From Calothrix membranacea FACHB-236 (GTDB taxonomy: Bacteria > Cyanobacteriota > Cyanobacteriia > Cyanobacteriales > Nostocaceae): 64,000 nucleotides of DNA. Below the pieces are notes generated by a model. The model saw only the letters and a list, made by a program, of their open reading frames with translations, was not told where the DNA came from and did not search any database. The stretch lies in the NCBI RefSeq assembly GCF_014696315.1, contig NZ_JACJPX010000002.1, forward strand, positions 62,001 to 126,000. The letters are read 5' to 3'. Shown here piece after piece: positions 12,705-39,293 of the stretch. The position numbers were made by a program, and so were the translations under genes. Position 1 is the stretch's first letter, and each line of letters begins with the position of its first letter.

Positions 12705-13010
12705 TTGTTTGATATGTAGCGTGTGTTGTCGCGCCGCAACGCACCGACTCACTAGTCAGGGCTGTCATTTGTTCCAATACTACTCGGTTAAGGATTTTCA
12801 ACTCGGAATTTAGTTTGGGGAAAAGGTGAAAGGGTAAGGGTTCAAGGTTTTTTCTTGCCCTTTCCCCTTTTGCCCTTAAGCGACAAAATATTCACTTGCT
12901 TTTTGTGACAAATTGCCCTGAAAATAAGAAATAAGCTCTAAAAGCTAGAGAATAGAAGAAAACAAGTAATAACAATTAAAAATAGTAAATCTATCTTCGA
13001 TCAAACATAA
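12705..13010. other. Spacer with a short inverted repeat of the GTGTGTT/AACGCACC family
   Basis: No gene is visible. At 12719-12750 there is a copy of a short palindromic repeat (GTGTGTTGTCGCG then CGCAACGCACC) that recurs in many spacers of this window. The rest is AT-rich and probably holds the promoter of the following small secreted protein. Confidence 0.6.
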
Positions 13011-33246: not shown

Positions 33247-33637
33247 CTTGAATTTTTTTACTGCAATTGCATCGCGCTTAGAGATTATTCATAAAGTAGG
33301 GTGTGTTAGGCGCTAGCTTCCAATATGATTTGTCACGAAAGAACTTTCCTAGCGCCTAACGCACCATCAATGCGGCGGTGCGTTACGGCTAATTTTAATT
33401 GTCGCTAAGTCTCAAATCCTTTCATAGCCGTAACACACCCTACTTTATCTGCATTTTTCTTTCCCATTACCCATTACCGACCTTCACAGATATGATAAGT
33501 CCTGAAACGGACATCATATAACATCTGTTGTGAAAGCCATACAAAGATGCAATAGTATAAAAGCGTATAGGTGAGTAAGCATCTTTTACCAATTTACTTG
33601 CCTAAAGCGCTTAAATTTACTTAATATTTTAGATTGT
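33247..33637. other. Spacer with a MITE-like palindromic element
   Basis: No gene is visible. The stretch 33297-33446 starts GTAGGGTGTGTTAGGCGCTAG and ends with AGCCGTAACACACCCTAC, so the ends are inverted repeats. About 90 bp of its right half (GCGGCGGTGCGTTACGGCTAA onward) is repeated at 37989-38062. Confidence 0.65.
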
Positions 33638-34282
33638 ATGGTGGCTATTGTTACTCAAACACAATTGCATAACTTGCGCCCAGGCGATCGCGTTAAATAT
33701 CATGGTGTCGATTGGAAGGTAGAAGACTACAGCGTATATCAAGATCCCCAGGGGTATTTAACGGATGAGTGGTTGCTAACTTCTAATAAGGGTTCAGAAT
33801 ATTACTTATTAAGAGAATTCGATCCAGCCAATAAGTCACATTCTATAACTTGGTATCTGGCTAACCCATTACAAAATCCGCGCCTGTTACTACCAGATTC
33901 CGAAGAAAATATTGTACCCAGGTTGTGGGAGGATATGCAATCTCAAGCGGAACCATATCCAGAATTGCAACTCTTTTATAAGCGCTATTATTTTGAGTCA
34001 CGCACAGAGGGAGACTATCAGACAGACGGGGAGATAAAATCTCGCATTACCTGGGATTATTGGGACGAAGAACATCAAATGAATTTGGCTATTGAAGCTT
34101 TTCCCTATCATCAATTAGATATTTATTCAACTAAAGTAGTCCGTCCTGAGGAATTTTCTTCAATCCAAAAATTAGCAGATGCAAATCAGATTGATGTGGG
34201 AGAGATGATTATCAAAGGTGTGCAAGTTTTATTTGCTTCTGTGCTATTGCTAATAGGAATTTGTATGATGATATTTGGATAA
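33638..34282 (+). CDS. DUF4178 domain protein with C-terminal membrane anchor
   Basis: 214-residue protein, first gene of the polyamine/membrane cluster. The DUF4178-type beta-rich domain is seen in LRPGDRVKYHGVDWKVEDYSVYQD ... TDEWLLTSNKGSEYYLLREFD ... SITWYLANPL (residues 11-90). A second stretch (about 115-170) continues the fold, and the chain ends in one strong transmembrane segment (VLFASVLLLIGICMMIFG). The domain would face the cytoplasm if the tail is inserted in the usual tail-anchor way. The function of DUF4178 is unknown. The next gene follows within 8 bp, so co-translation is likely. Confidence 0.82.
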   Translation: MVAIVTQTQLHNLRPGDRVKYHGVDWKVEDYSVYQDPQGYLTDEWLLTSNKGSEYYLLREFDPANKSHSITWYLANPLQNPRLLLPDSEENIVPRLWEDMQSQAEPYPELQLFYKRYYFESRTEGDYQTDGEIKSRITWDYWDEEHQMNLAIEAFPYHQLDIYSTKVVRPEEFSSIQKLADANQIDVGEMIIKGVQVLFASVLLLIGICMMIFG

Positions 34283-34289
34283 GAGGGAA

Positions 34290-35759
34290 ATGCCTAATTC
34301 TTTATTTATTGAACAGCATGATGATGGTATTGCCTTTTATATCAATGGAGATTTGCAGTTTGATACTGCTGATGAGGCAATATATCATGAGTATTTAGTA
34401 ATTCCTGCAATCGCTTTAGCCATTAAAAGATTTCCGCAAACACACTTGCGTGTATTGGTTTGTGGTGGTGGCGATGGTTTAGCGGTGAGAGATATCTTAC
34501 GCTTTCCCCAAGTTAGCGAGATTGATTTAGTTGATTACAATCCAGAAGTTTTAGAACTAGCACGCACTGTCTTTAAACCTTATAACTTGGGAAGCTTAGA
34601 CTCAGAAAAAGTCACCGTTTATACCCAAGATGCATTTGCATTTGTTTCAGAAATGCCAAATGATTATTATCATGTCATCATTTGTGACTTTACCTATCCG
34701 CATTCTTCAGACGACACAAATATATATAGTCGGGAATGGTTCCAAAAGCTGAATCGCGTACTCATTCCCAATGGCGTAATTTGCACCAACGGGGTTTCTC
34801 CCCACAACAGAACCACAGGTTTTTGGTGTTTATATCAAACGTTGTTAGCCGCAGATTTCACAGTCAAACCTTTACAGATAGCTATTCCTTCATTTTCTCA
34901 TCATGGTTACGGTAATTGGGGCTTCTTTTTAGCATCACCGCAGGTAATTACGCGCTATGAAATTGAAGTCCTCAATTTTCCCGAACAGTTACATTCCTTA
35001 ACTCATAGTCAGCTACTCCAAGCCTTTATTTTTGAGAGTGCGATCGCAGAGTCTCGGCATGGAGTTATGATTCATACTTTAGAGAGTCCGCAACTGTTTT
35101 ATTATCTGCTGAATGCTCCAACGCAGCTAGACAATTTAAACTTAGAATCTAACGCTACTATTGATTTTTTAGATATTGAAGAGATAGGAAATGCTCAAAT
35201 TGGCGAAGGTGATTTACTAGATTTAGAATCAGTAGCTAAATTTTGGATAGAAAATATCTATGCTTTGCCAGAAACACAGGATAAGTTAGCAGATATGAAT
35301 CGGTATTTACCTGTGCGTCATCGCTACCATAGCCAAAATATGACATCAGCATGGCTAGCACATCTCAAAGAATTACTCGCAGAAATCGATATTAAGCAAT
35401 TATTGCAGAGTTTGTTAGCCAGAGCGCAAGATTTACCACCACAAATTGCCCAGGATTTGAAAAAATTAGCTGACAAAGTTAGTAATAATCAAGCATTAGC
35501 AAATCTACATCCGCAAACTGTGGAGTTAATCGCCATGCTATCGGTAACATTATTAATGGCAAATTTAGTCGCACCCGATTCAGTATTTGCTAAAGGTTTC
35601 TCTTCTAGTAGTGGTAGTAGAAGTAGCAGTAGTAGCAGTAGTACTAGCTATGGTGGTGATGGTGATACATTTATGAATAAATTTATAGGTATGTGCCTCA
35701 CTGGAGTAGGTGGAGTTTGGCTATATAACATCTTCTTCCCGCAACAAAGGGATGAATGA
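34290..35759 (+). CDS. Aminopropyltransferase (spermidine synthase)-like protein with membrane tail
   Basis: 489-residue protein whose N-terminal 270 residues have the polyamine-synthase/SAM fold: YHEYLVIPAIAL, VLVCGGGDGLAVRDILR (decarboxylated-SAM site), LVDYNPEVLELA, and IICDFTYPHSSDD. In spermidine synthases the last motif is D-S/T-S/T-D-P with a catalytic Asp; here the second Asp is Tyr (DFTYP), so the amine substrate may differ. A helical region of about 150 residues follows. The chain then has a hydrophobic stretch (TVELIAMLSVTLLMANLVAPDSVFA), a Ser-rich linker and a last hydrophobic segment (FIGMCLTGVGGVWLYNIFF). The ATG at 34290 was preferred to a TTG at 34275. Decarboxylated SAM would come from the SpeD gene nearby. 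Confidence 0.85.
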   Translation: MPNSLFIEQHDDGIAFYINGDLQFDTADEAIYHEYLVIPAIALAIKRFPQTHLRVLVCGGGDGLAVRDILRFPQVSEIDLVDYNPEVLELARTVFKPYNLGSLDSEKVTVYTQDAFAFVSEMPNDYYHVIICDFTYPHSSDDTNIYSREWFQKLNRVLIPNGVICTNGVSPHNRTTGFWCLYQTLLAADFTVKPLQIAIPSFSHHGYGNWGFFLASPQVITRYEIEVLNFPEQLHSLTHSQLLQAFIFESAIAESRHGVMIHTLESPQLFYYLLNAPTQLDNLNLESNATIDFLDIEEIGNAQIGEGDLLDLESVAKFWIENIYALPETQDKLADMNRYLPVRHRYHSQNMTSAWLAHLKELLAEIDIKQLLQSLLARAQDLPPQIAQDLKKLADKVSNNQALANLHPQTVELIAMLSVTLLMANLVAPDSVFAKGFSSSSGSRSSSSSSSTSYGGDGDTFMNKFIGMCLTGVGGVWLYNIFFPQQRDE

Positions 35760-35801
35760 AGATAATTTGCGTAATTCGTAATTACATCATAGGCAAATAA
35801 T

Positions 35802-36845
35802 ATGATTTATGCAGATAAATCGGTGCAGCAAGATTTAGCTTTAAATATTAGAGAATTAAATACAGCCGAACAACAGGATTGGGATGCACTCATCAAAAAT
35901 CATCCCAATGGTTCCTTTATGCAAACTTCCAGTTGGGCAGATTTTAAAGAAATCGAAGGATATAAAAGCTTTCGCTACGGTTTATTTTTAAATAATCAAT
36001 TAATCGGAGGATGTATTTATTATTTATATCCTCAAAGCAATAAAGCTAATTTATTGATTGCGCCTGGCGGGCCAATATTACCAACAGAATATGCAGAAGA
36101 AGCGCTACAGCTATTGTTGCATCAAGCCGAGAAATTAGCGCAAGAATTAGGAGCGATCGCACTGCGGATTGAACCATTATGGACAGAGAAACCAGCGTAC
36201 CTGAAAAAATTTGTGCGCGCACCTGCGGATTTACTAGCATCAGAAACTTTACTTATAGATTTAACTCCAGAACCTAGCGAAATTTTAGCAGCGATGAAGC
36301 CGAAAGGACGCTACAATATCCGCCTCAGTCAACGCTATGGTGTGACAACAGAATTTAGTAGTGATTCGCAAAAAATCCCTGTATTGTATGAATTATTTTG
36401 GGAAACAGTACAGCGTCAAAAGTTCTTTGGTGAACCCTACGGCTTTTTTATCAATCTTTGCCAAATGTTATTTAAATCAAACATGGCAGAAATTGGTTTA
36501 GCCTATTGGCAAGGTGAGATATTAGCAGCAATTTTAGTAGTATATTGCGGTAAAGTTGCTACTTATTTATATGGCGGACGAAGTTTAGCACATCCACAAG
36601 TCATGGCTAATTACAGCTTACATTGGGAAGCTATGCAAAGAGCTAAATTGCGGGGTTGCCAATTTTATGATTTTTATGGATTTACCCAAGATGTAAATCA
36701 TAGCTATGCAAAGTTTTCGCAATTTAAAAGTCAGTTTGGTGGACAGTCTATTAAAACTATAGGCGCACAGGATTACTTTTTTTATGACCAATTAGCTGAT
36801 ACCCTCATTAGCTTATTTCAAAACCTGGCAGGTGGTAGCAGATGA
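35802..36845 (+). CDS. FemAB-like (lipid II:glycine glycyltransferase family) aminoacyltransferase
   Basis: 347-residue protein of the FemX/FemAB family, two GNAT-like domains in tandem. Family marks are SFMQTSSWADFK (near residue 40), GGPIL, the MKPKGRYNIRLSQRYGV block (near 165) and the C-terminal YLYGGRSLAHPQVMANYSLHWEAMQRAKLRGCQFYDFYGF (near 260). Relatives transfer amino acids from tRNA to peptidoglycan precursors or lipids at the cytoplasmic membrane face. The gene overlaps the DUF350 gene by 4 bp (ATGA), implying coupled translation, and sits between polyamine-type genes. Adding an amino acid or amine to a membrane precursor is an inference. Cyanobacteria lack the typical Gram-positive interpeptide bridge, so its target is open. 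Confidence 0.85.
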   Translation: MIYADKSVQQDLALNIRELNTAEQQDWDALIKNHPNGSFMQTSSWADFKEIEGYKSFRYGLFLNNQLIGGCIYYLYPQSNKANLLIAPGGPILPTEYAEEALQLLLHQAEKLAQELGAIALRIEPLWTEKPAYLKKFVRAPADLLASETLLIDLTPEPSEILAAMKPKGRYNIRLSQRYGVTTEFSSDSQKIPVLYELFWETVQRQKFFGEPYGFFINLCQMLFKSNMAEIGLAYWQGEILAAILVVYCGKVATYLYGGRSLAHPQVMANYSLHWEAMQRAKLRGCQFYDFYGFTQDVNHSYAKFSQFKSQFGGQSIKTIGAQDYFFYDQLADTLISLFQNLAGGSR

Positions 36846-37711
36846 ACGAAAGATTGATGGCGATAGTTACGCAATTTGGCGTGATTTTACTAGAATTATT
36901 TGTAGGGTTTGGTTTATTTTGGCTAGGACAGTTGGCTTATCAAAAGCTGTTTCGCCGCCGCATGGAATTAAATTTAGAATTATTTGTTAATGATAACCCT
37001 GCGGTTGCTGTGGCATTAGTAGGTTACTATTTTGGTATAGTTATTGCTTTAGGCGGCGTTCTTGGTCAAAGTGTCGATAATTGGCAAGATAAAGCGCTGA
37101 ATCTAATTAGTTATGGTGCCACAGTAATTTTATTAATGTTAGCTGGTGCATGGGTAGGGGATAAATTAATTCTGCGTCATTTTAATTGTGAACGCGAAAT
37201 TATCCAAGACCGTAACATGGGTGCGGCGAATGTAGAAGCTGCAATCCACATCGCCAACGGTTTAATTTTAAATGCAGCTTTAGCAGGAGAAAGCGGTGGT
37301 TGGTTAGTAGGAATAGTTTGTTGGTTAATTGGCTTAGGATTACTCGTTTTCGTAAGTTTAGTTTATCCCAAAGTTACTAAATATAATGTGTTTGCAGAAA
37401 TTGAAAAGCGCAATAACCCGGCGGCTGGTGTAGCTTTGGCTGGTTTATTGATTGCTACAGGTAACATTGTAAGAGTCGCCTTTGCAGCCGAATTTGAAAA
37501 CTGGATTGTGAGTTTTACTCAGTATGGATTACTACTAATATTTTGCTTAGTTTCATTGGTAGTGATTCGCTGGTTAGCCGATTTAATTTTAGTCCCTGGC
37601 GTAAAAATTTCTGATGAAATAGTCAATCAAGAAGTTCCCAATATTGGCGCAGGTTTAATAGAAGCATTTGCTTATATTGCAGCTTCATTTTTAATTGCTT
37701 GGTGTCTTTAA
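36842..37711 (+). CDS. DUF350 (YjfL-type) membrane protein
   Basis: 289-residue integral membrane protein with about eight hydrophobic segments arranged as two related halves. The DUF350 marks appear twice: NDNPAVAVALVGYYFGIVIALGG (near residue 50) and KRNNPAAGVALAGLLIATGNIV (near 190), each followed by further helices. The start overlaps the FemAB-like gene by 4 bp. DUF350 genes are often next to SpeD, aminopropyltransferase and DUF4178 genes in other bacteria. The role is unknown; transport or sensing of an amine or lipid is a guess. Confidence 0.9.
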   Translation: MNERLMAIVTQFGVILLELFVGFGLFWLGQLAYQKLFRRRMELNLELFVNDNPAVAVALVGYYFGIVIALGGVLGQSVDNWQDKALNLISYGATVILLMLAGAWVGDKLILRHFNCEREIIQDRNMGAANVEAAIHIANGLILNAALAGESGGWLVGIVCWLIGLGLLVFVSLVYPKVTKYNVFAEIEKRNNPAAGVALAGLLIATGNIVRVAFAAEFENWIVSFTQYGLLLIFCLVSLVVIRWLADLILVPGVKISDEIVNQEVPNIGAGLIEAFAYIAASFLIAWCL

Positions 37712-37721
37712 GAATTTGAAT

Positions 37722-38062
37722 TGTAGGGTGCGTTAGCGTCAGCGTAACGCACCGCCGCATACATAAGCTGTTACGCATTTAAATTGTATATTTCGCACTT
37801 AGGTTGTCAAAAGTCAAGAGTCCAAAGTCCAAGCTAGCCTTTGACTCTGGACTCTTGACCCTTGACAGTCCTAACGCCAGAATATTTGATTTAGGTGCGT
37901 ATCAGCTTAGTATGTTATTAATATTTAAATAATTCCTTTAATATGATTGCTTACGAAATAATTATCTTCACACTAACGCACTATATACGCGGCGGTGCGT
38001 TACGGCTAAATTGAATTGTCTCTAATTATCAAATGCTCTCACAGCCGTAACACACCCTACAT
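37722..38062. repeat. MITE-like palindromic elements between DUF350 and speD
   Basis: A short GTAGGGTGCGTTAGCG/CGTAACGCACC hairpin (37722-37753) is followed by a 17-bp hairpin and then by a larger element ending AGCCGTAACACACCCTAC (38044-38061). About 90 bp of the right half is shared with the element at 33297-33446. Similar short palindromes also occur at 12719, 27619, 41787, 52643 and 54262. Confidence 0.65.
37813..37859. terminator. Strong hairpin between the convergent DUF350 and speD genes
   Basis: The 17-base arms 37813-37829 and 37843-37859 pair at 16 of 17 positions around a 13-base loop. Its place between convergent genes suits a two-way terminator, although the arms also resemble TTGACTC-type repeats elsewhere and there is no T run. 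Confidence 0.45.
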
Positions 38063-38085
38063 GAATTGCTATATGAGAAAGTTTA

Positions 38086-38445
38086 TTAACCAGTGATATA
38101 TACATAATTCCAGTTAGTCATACTCTCACACTCAGTAATTTGCTTGGTGAGAATCTGCGCTAATAGCTTAGCCTTTTGCTGATTATCTTTTTGGTAGTCA
38201 CATATATGAATATCTATGGTAACTTTTGCCTCTTCTGGCCAAAAGTGCAATGCTACATGAGATTCTGCTAGTAAAATAACTGCGGAAACTCCCTGGGGTT
38301 GGAATGCATAAGCCAGTTCACCAACAATAGTTAGTTGAGCGATATGGGCCGCATTTTTCATAACTTTGATAAAATCTACCGTTTCCCAACTGAAAACAGT
38401 CTGTGAAGCTGGCAAAATTGCGTAAAAATGATGGGACTGAATCAC
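38086..38445 (-). CDS. speD: S-adenosylmethionine decarboxylase proenzyme (SpeD)
   Basis: 119-residue pyruvoyl-type AdoMet decarboxylase, the usual size for the bacterial class (about 115-130). It supplies decarboxylated SAM, the aminopropyl donor for polyamine synthesis. The self-cleavage serine lies in LLAESHVALHFWPE (Ser near residue 62), with His in LHFWPE and Cys in IHICD at the places used in processing and catalysis. Cleavage at Glu-Ser would yield the beta and alpha chains. It is convergent with the DUF4178-aminopropyltransferase-FemAB-DUF350 cluster, 374 bp away, so it is probably functionally linked though separately transcribed. Confidence 0.92.
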   Translation of the reverse strand: MIQSHHFYAILPASQTVFSWETVDFIKVMKNAAHIAQLTIVGELAYAFQPQGVSAVILLAESHVALHFWPEEAKVTIDIHICDYQKDNQQKAKLLAQILTKQITECESMTNWNYVYITG

Positions 38446-39098: not shown

Positions 39099-39293
39099 AT
39101 GACTAAAGTTTATATTCTGGATGCCAACAAACAACCCTTGTATCCCATACACATCAGCCACGCCAGAAAGCTATTGTCTCAAGGAGATGCAAAAGTATTC
39201 CGGCGATATCCATTTACTATTATTTTAAAGGAGGTTCTGACACAGTCTAGGTTAGAGCAACTTGGTTTTAAGATTGACCCTGATGTAAATTAA
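39099..39293 (+). pseudogene. Truncated IscB (RRXRR/PLMP domain) remnant
   Basis: 64-residue frame that matches the N-terminal PLMP (RRXRR) domain of IscB, the transposon-encoded RNA-guided nuclease family ancestral to Cas9. Recognisable parts are KVYILDANKQPLYPIHISHARKLL, the QGDAKVFRRYPFTIIL core and LGFKIDP. In full proteins KIDP is followed by GSKTTG, the first RuvC motif; here it reads DVN and stops. No HNH or RuvC remainder could be found in the next 700 bp. The element is therefore a decayed remnant or a free-standing PLMP domain. The ATG at 39099 gives the family start. Confidence 0.78.

Follow-up and report, generated by a model that had tools for sequence, protein, structure and literature searches.

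Li et al. 2019 are said to have described membrane-fused proteins resembling spermidine synthase, with SpeD and DUF350 encoded nearby and an acceptor thought to be other than putrescine; the same study reportedly noted that many bacterial spermidine-synthase-like proteins make no spermidine. The acceptor of such proteins is the question on which the gene cluster analyzed here bears. The sections of Ravi et al. 2024 (PMC11237479) drawn on here report operons in which a 7TM-spermine synthase, DUF350, DUF4178, PspA, and CesT/Tir occur together, as well as related operons with a glutathionylspermidine-synthetase-like ligase or an AdoMet decarboxylase, and propose, citing Li et al. 2019, the aminopropylation of other substrates. 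Measured against those sections, our cluster is a variant of the published spermine-synthase/DUF350/DUF4178 systems. The original prediction, which knew of no description of this exact set, thus has to be narrowed: the wider neighborhood is already in print, and the version with a FemAB-family transferase alone looks new. The main text of PMC11237479 makes no mention of FemAB by name. Among open-licence PMC papers, DUF4178 and DUF350 came up together in a single one, no pairing of FemAB with spermidine synthase was found, FemAB combined with cyanobacteria and aminoacyl-tRNA gave no match, and the four domain names together gave nothing further on point among the matches listed.

The cluster lies in a window of 64,000 nucleotides from Calothrix membranacea FACHB-236, whose 8.8 Mb genome is near that of Nostoc linckia FACHB-104 (98% identity in the aminopropyltransferase-like protein, APT). 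The open reading frames, gaps, overlap, and convergent speD initially read from the letters proved exact to the base when compared with ORF coordinates and Pfam (Table 1), with 7 bp between DUF4178 and APT, 42 bp between APT and FemAB, and a 4 bp overlap of FemAB and DUF350. All five window proteins exceeded the Pfam cut-offs of their families. Hydropathy bore out the claimed membrane tails and all-membrane product, placing C-terminal segments in DUF4178 and APT and seven segments in DUF350, and the SpeD residues described as catalytically intact, S62, H67, and C82, align with those of solved AdoMetDCs.

Table 1. Genes of the cluster, in window coordinates.
Product	Position	Strand	Domain evidence and features
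DUF4178 protein, 214 aa	33638..34282	+	PF13785, 57.2 bits (Pfam); C-terminal membrane segment 195-213
APT (aminopropyltransferase-like), 489 aa	34290..35759	+	PF01564, 91 bits; DxxD replaced by DFTY
FemAB-family transferase, 347 aa	35802..36845	+	PF02388, 122.2 bits vs. cut-off 24
DUF350 membrane protein, 289 aa, two DUF350 copies	36842..37711	+	PF03994, 156 bits
Small divergent SpeD (AdoMet_dc), 119 aa	38086..38445	-, convergent	PF02675, 73.5 bits; GTG start

The repeat GCGGTGCGTTACGGC flanks the operon on both sides (window positions 33375, 37741, and 37992) and occurs also at 12733, which makes four matches at two or fewer mismatches versus 0.03 expected. A 64-aa RRXRR fragment on the plus strand at 39099-39293 (PF14239, E 5.8e-15, profile positions 1-58 of 174) presumably represents the beginning of a truncated protein of the IscB type.

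We searched 192 Nostocaceae genomes with each cluster component and surveyed 386 genomes of the phylum, where only four or five first-look candidates per genome were scored, so that absences in the phylum survey are less certain than those in the family survey. Full-length APT (E 1e-132 or better; next best 4e-32), strong FemAB (E 1e-185 or better; next best 5e-7), and the divergent DUF4178 were each found in 19 of the 192 Nostocaceae genomes. These 19 are identical for the three proteins; each holds exactly one SpeD match, and all keep the gene order DUF4178-APT-FemAB. Eighteen of them carry DUF350, with an additional weak copy in G141; outside the 19, this family was limited to remnants in G014 and G063 and a single weak match in G029. 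The phylum survey yielded cluster-type APT in 11 of 386 genomes, nine of them with a full-length copy and two with a distant one; FemAB marked exactly these 11 as well. Five of these overlap with the 19, leaving 25 distinct genomes, and APT and FemAB are adjacent in every one; Nostoc linckia FACHB-104 and Nostoc carneum NIES-2107 are named carriers. The idea of a system had hinged on the genes being neighbors in related genomes and on DUF350 and FemAB not being co-expressed without APT or SpeD. The genes do adjoin and co-occur, and strong FemAB was present only in APT genomes (19/192; 11/386 at E 1e-15).

The remaining members are less constant. DUF4178 lies directly upstream of APT in 23 of the 25 genomes and was not found beside APT in G237 and G230, distant members with a longer APT followed by FemAB, both of them drafts (contamination 9% and 7%). 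DUF350 is present in 21, counting shortened or broken copies in G170, G024, and G077, and was not found in G108, G499, G237, and G230; these counts rule it out as an essential part. Sixteen of the 19 Nostocaceae genomes have a convergent SpeD closing the cluster; in G108 it follows FemAB on the core strand, and in G141 and G056 it lies elsewhere. Of all 25 genomes, 19 have SpeD close to the core; it is located elsewhere or on a different contig in four (G141, G056, G237, and G230), and is undetected in G360 and G499 by Pfam and by an own-profile search run without a positive control; both genomes are 99% complete and carry APT and FemAB. The arrangement in G364 is that of the window, G244 has SpeD first with all five genes on one strand, G360 reads DUF4178-APT-FemAB-DUF350, and G499 reads DUF4178-APT-FemAB. 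Although away from the core, SpeD in G141 and G056 adjoins genes for an aldolase, a short-chain dehydrogenase, and a DUF1838 protein (L119, L120), the same genes as are found past SpeD in the window; therefore, core and SpeD became separated. Of the proposed five-gene set, the APT-FemAB pair is fixed, while DUF350 is dispensable and the linkage of SpeD varies. Joint occurrence and conserved gene order rule out a chance neighborhood; the joint-presence figures, 1/C(192,19) and 1/C(386,11), disregard shared ancestry and are not taken as probabilities.

Our leading interpretation, held with moderate confidence, is that the cluster encodes a co-inherited, membrane-tethered transferase module for aminopropyl and aminoacyl transfer to a membrane-proximal acceptor. 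SpeD would decarboxylate SAM to dcSAM, the presumed donor from which APT, held at the membrane via its C-terminal segments, would pass an aminopropyl group to an acceptor unlike putrescine and related small diamines; this acceptor is probably bound to the membrane and could be a lipid, a cell-wall precursor, or a protein. FemAB would then add an amino acid, putatively from an aminoacyl-tRNA, to the same molecule, plausibly on the new amine. DUF4178 may act as a membrane-anchored partner and DUF350 as an accessory membrane protein moving or exposing the product. With FemAB as a fixed partner, the chemistry comes down to an amine or amide carried by a molecule that is probably close to the membrane, and the position of SpeD on the strand of the core in G244 and G108 supports the module. 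The main counter-result for dcSAM as the donor is the pair of near-complete genomes with APT and no detectable SpeD (G360 and G499), and the possibility, raised in passages of PMC10407285, that SpeD has another substrate also counts against the module. The original prediction is supported in part: the conserved linkage speaks for a system, and polyamine conjugation is at most a possibility, the loss of the second Asp described below speaking against an ordinary diamine acceptor.

A more specific reading, which we offer tentatively, is a hitherto undescribed two-step membrane decoration in which an APT that has lost its diamine site attaches the aminopropyl group of dcSAM, FemAB caps it, and SpeD serves the cluster only. 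Just as tentatively, the acceptor could be a lipid, cell-wall precursor, or membrane protein and the cap a tRNA-borne amino acid. If true, this would link chemistry of the polyamine type with envelope modification that depends on tRNA. The gene set is small, and in each of the 19 Nostocaceae genomes no SpeD besides the one counted with the set was detected.

The APT scored 97.6 bits, below the NCBIfam speE cut-off of 249.55. We compared the motifs of 25 cluster-type APTs with those of 17 long-form and two ordinary ones, the comparison set coming from the loci fetched. GGGDG and the first Asp of DxxD are retained in 25/25 cluster-type proteins. The second Asp is replaced in 25/25 by Tyr, Cys, Ser, Leu, or Trp, versus its retention in 17/17 long-form and 2/2 ordinary APTs. 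Going by spermidine-synthase structures, we take this second Asp to contact the acceptor amine, so its loss disfavors an ordinary diamine acceptor. The protein begins directly with the synthase domain, and its membrane segments are C-terminal, two in the window APT around a Ser/Gly-rich stretch; in hydropathy plots of 19 APTs, 13 displayed two segments and six displayed one. Long-form APTs have about 240-280 extra N-terminal residues. The APT model (mean pLDDT 40, alignment of 7 sequences) was too poor for pocket inspection.

In the distant APTs (L103 5592-8234, L104 7761-10883), the Ser-rich stretch and first C-terminal membrane segment are followed by several hundred further residues, in which Pfam found no family. 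Upstream of long-form APT genes is a conserved protein of ~330-360 aa, 41-60% identical to the L115 copy, which itself had no Pfam match (L115 11069-12073, L116 5223-6272, L109 7202-8287, L127 4288-5283, and also L117, L122, and L123). A defense system was considered and rejected: APT matches PADLOC mad2 (E 7.9e-18, residues 45-217) in its SAM-binding part only, and the other four cluster proteins had no PADLOC match.

The APT features bear on a first alternative, soluble polyamine conjugation, in which APT would aminopropylate homospermidine or another free polyamine, FemAB would aminoacylate it, and DUF350 would export the product. We consider this unlikely, as the second Asp is lost throughout, APT and DUF4178 appear membrane-anchored by hydropathy, and DUF350 is absent from four of the 25 genomes, even though the window genome contains a gene of the deoxyhypusine-synthase family, which according to passages of PMC10407285 makes homospermidine (SpeY), and other bacterial APTs can, as stated in part of PMC11107197, yield N1-aminopropylhomospermidine.

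The profile matches of FemAB to solved structures were 6snr, 1lrz, FemX entries, and 9wqw; the closest relative is a lipid II:glycine glycyltransferase, and the others are FemA, FemX, and an aminoacyl-tRNA-dependent peptide synthase. One borderline internal hydrophobic segment (231-249) lies in the GNAT part. The closest relative would suit ordinary FemAB action on peptidoglycan precursors, with APT and SpeD forming a separate, co-regulated envelope step, and so would the LD-carboxypeptidase (Peptidase_S66) gene that follows FemAB in G499. We judge this distinctly improbable, since the sister genome G360 showed no such neighbor, FemAB fell below every NCBIfam equivalog cut-off it matched, and strong FemAB never occurred without APT in the 192 and 386 genomes searched.

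Returning to the transferase module, its SpeD retains F48, E71, and W69, presumably nucleoside contacts, in the aligned cluster sequences, with the exception of W69 in G108. S62, H67, and C82 are invariant in 22 aligned sequences (20 cluster-genome SpeDs and two others); the roles of the catalytic Ser, His, and Cys are given in section 7 of PMC10407285. SpeD matches occurred in 72 of the 192 Nostocaceae genomes, comprising 46 strong canonical-type, 18 short divergent, that of G108, two remnants, and five weak ones. The SpeD of G108 is of a different type, 25% identical to that of the window, and the other 18 of the 19 cluster genomes have the short divergent form; in none of the 192 does the cluster coexist with a strong canonical-type SpeD. 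In the window genome, SpeD and Spermine_synth each gave a single match. The deoxyhypusine-synthase-family gene of this genome could supply homospermidine without SpeD, a route known from Anabaena. Given these sole matches and this possible SpeD-independent supply, SpeD is probably dedicated to the cluster.

The least probable alternative is that this SpeD is a neofunctionalized arginine or ornithine decarboxylase and that APT uses SAM or another donor; such homologues are widespread according to passages of PMC10407285, the cluster SpeD scores 72 bits against the NCBIfam cut-off of 75.65, and it goes undetected in G360 and G499 beside a retained APT, but the hallmark in the same passages is no spermidine synthase alongside or two SpeDs, versus one SpeD beside APT here, and the presumed nucleoside contacts and the GGGDG of APT are kept. 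Outside the cluster, G038, G010, G156, G165, and G158 carry SpeD-like proteins of ~120-130 aa that form a very divergent family (E 1e-5 to 7e-4), which is also present as second copies in G066 and G244.

The hydrophobic stretch of DUF4178 is N-terminal in nine aligned proteins of long-form loci, as opposed to the C-terminal segment of the cluster protein. For the DUF4178 model (mean pLDDT 61), Foldseek ranked EF-P and eIF5A first with E values of 0.12 and above, and no match reached 0.001; a profile of 26 DUF4178 proteins retrieved 31 solved sequences with E no higher than 10, and EF-P was not among them. The predicted EF-P/eIF5A likeness may serve as a weak lead.

Between APT, FemAB, and DUF4178, pairwise distances show correlations of 0.945 to 0.974, which shared ancestry could also produce. 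A 17-member Nostocaceae group was supported in all three trees, with G108 and G044 outside each time; the copy in G108, which belongs to the genus of the window, has a long branch and may reflect a transfer or an old divergence. The five genes are under purifying selection, with dN/dS of 0 to 0.29 against four relatives, except for SpeD vs. L032 (0.53 at dS 0.04). In G014 and G063, where DUF4178, APT, and FemAB were not found, DUF350 and SpeD persist only as frame-broken, still convergent pieces (L118 9168-9930, L134 1076-1814). These pieces are remnants of the cluster end, as would be expected if DUF350 and SpeD served the lost core. A 78-aa open frame with 45% identity to APT residues 199-259 (G067:C1:4413956-4414135) is perhaps another remnant.

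Compared with known systems, the FemAB protein resembles FemAB/FemX transferases in exceeding the PF02388 cut-off by far and in its structural matches (6snr, 1lrz, and FemX entries), and differs from them in its sub-threshold equivalog scores and in having APT as its genetic partner. APT shares the Spermine_synth domain, GGGDG, and the first Asp of DxxD with SpeE; in contrast, it scores below the speE cut-off, lacks the second Asp, and has ~260 extra C-terminal residues with membrane segments. SpeD is like class 1b AdoMetDC in its AdoMet_dc domain and catalytic Ser, His, and Cys. Unlike the proteins of Li et al. 2019, the cluster APT has a different anchor, a lost Asp, and a FemAB partner. An operon of the PMC11237479 kind, with SpeD, is present at L105 in a related genome, and the CesT/Tir-PspA pair was absent among the four operon genes and two flanking genes scanned in our cluster. 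As far as the cited sections of PMC11237479 describe those operons, the cluster agrees with them in combining a spermine-synthase domain, DUF350, and DUF4178, with AdoMet decarboxylase in some variants, and departs from them in that FemAB is fixed next to APT, the second Asp of DxxD is lost, and the N-terminal 7TM region of the 7TM-spermine synthase is replaced by C-terminal anchors.
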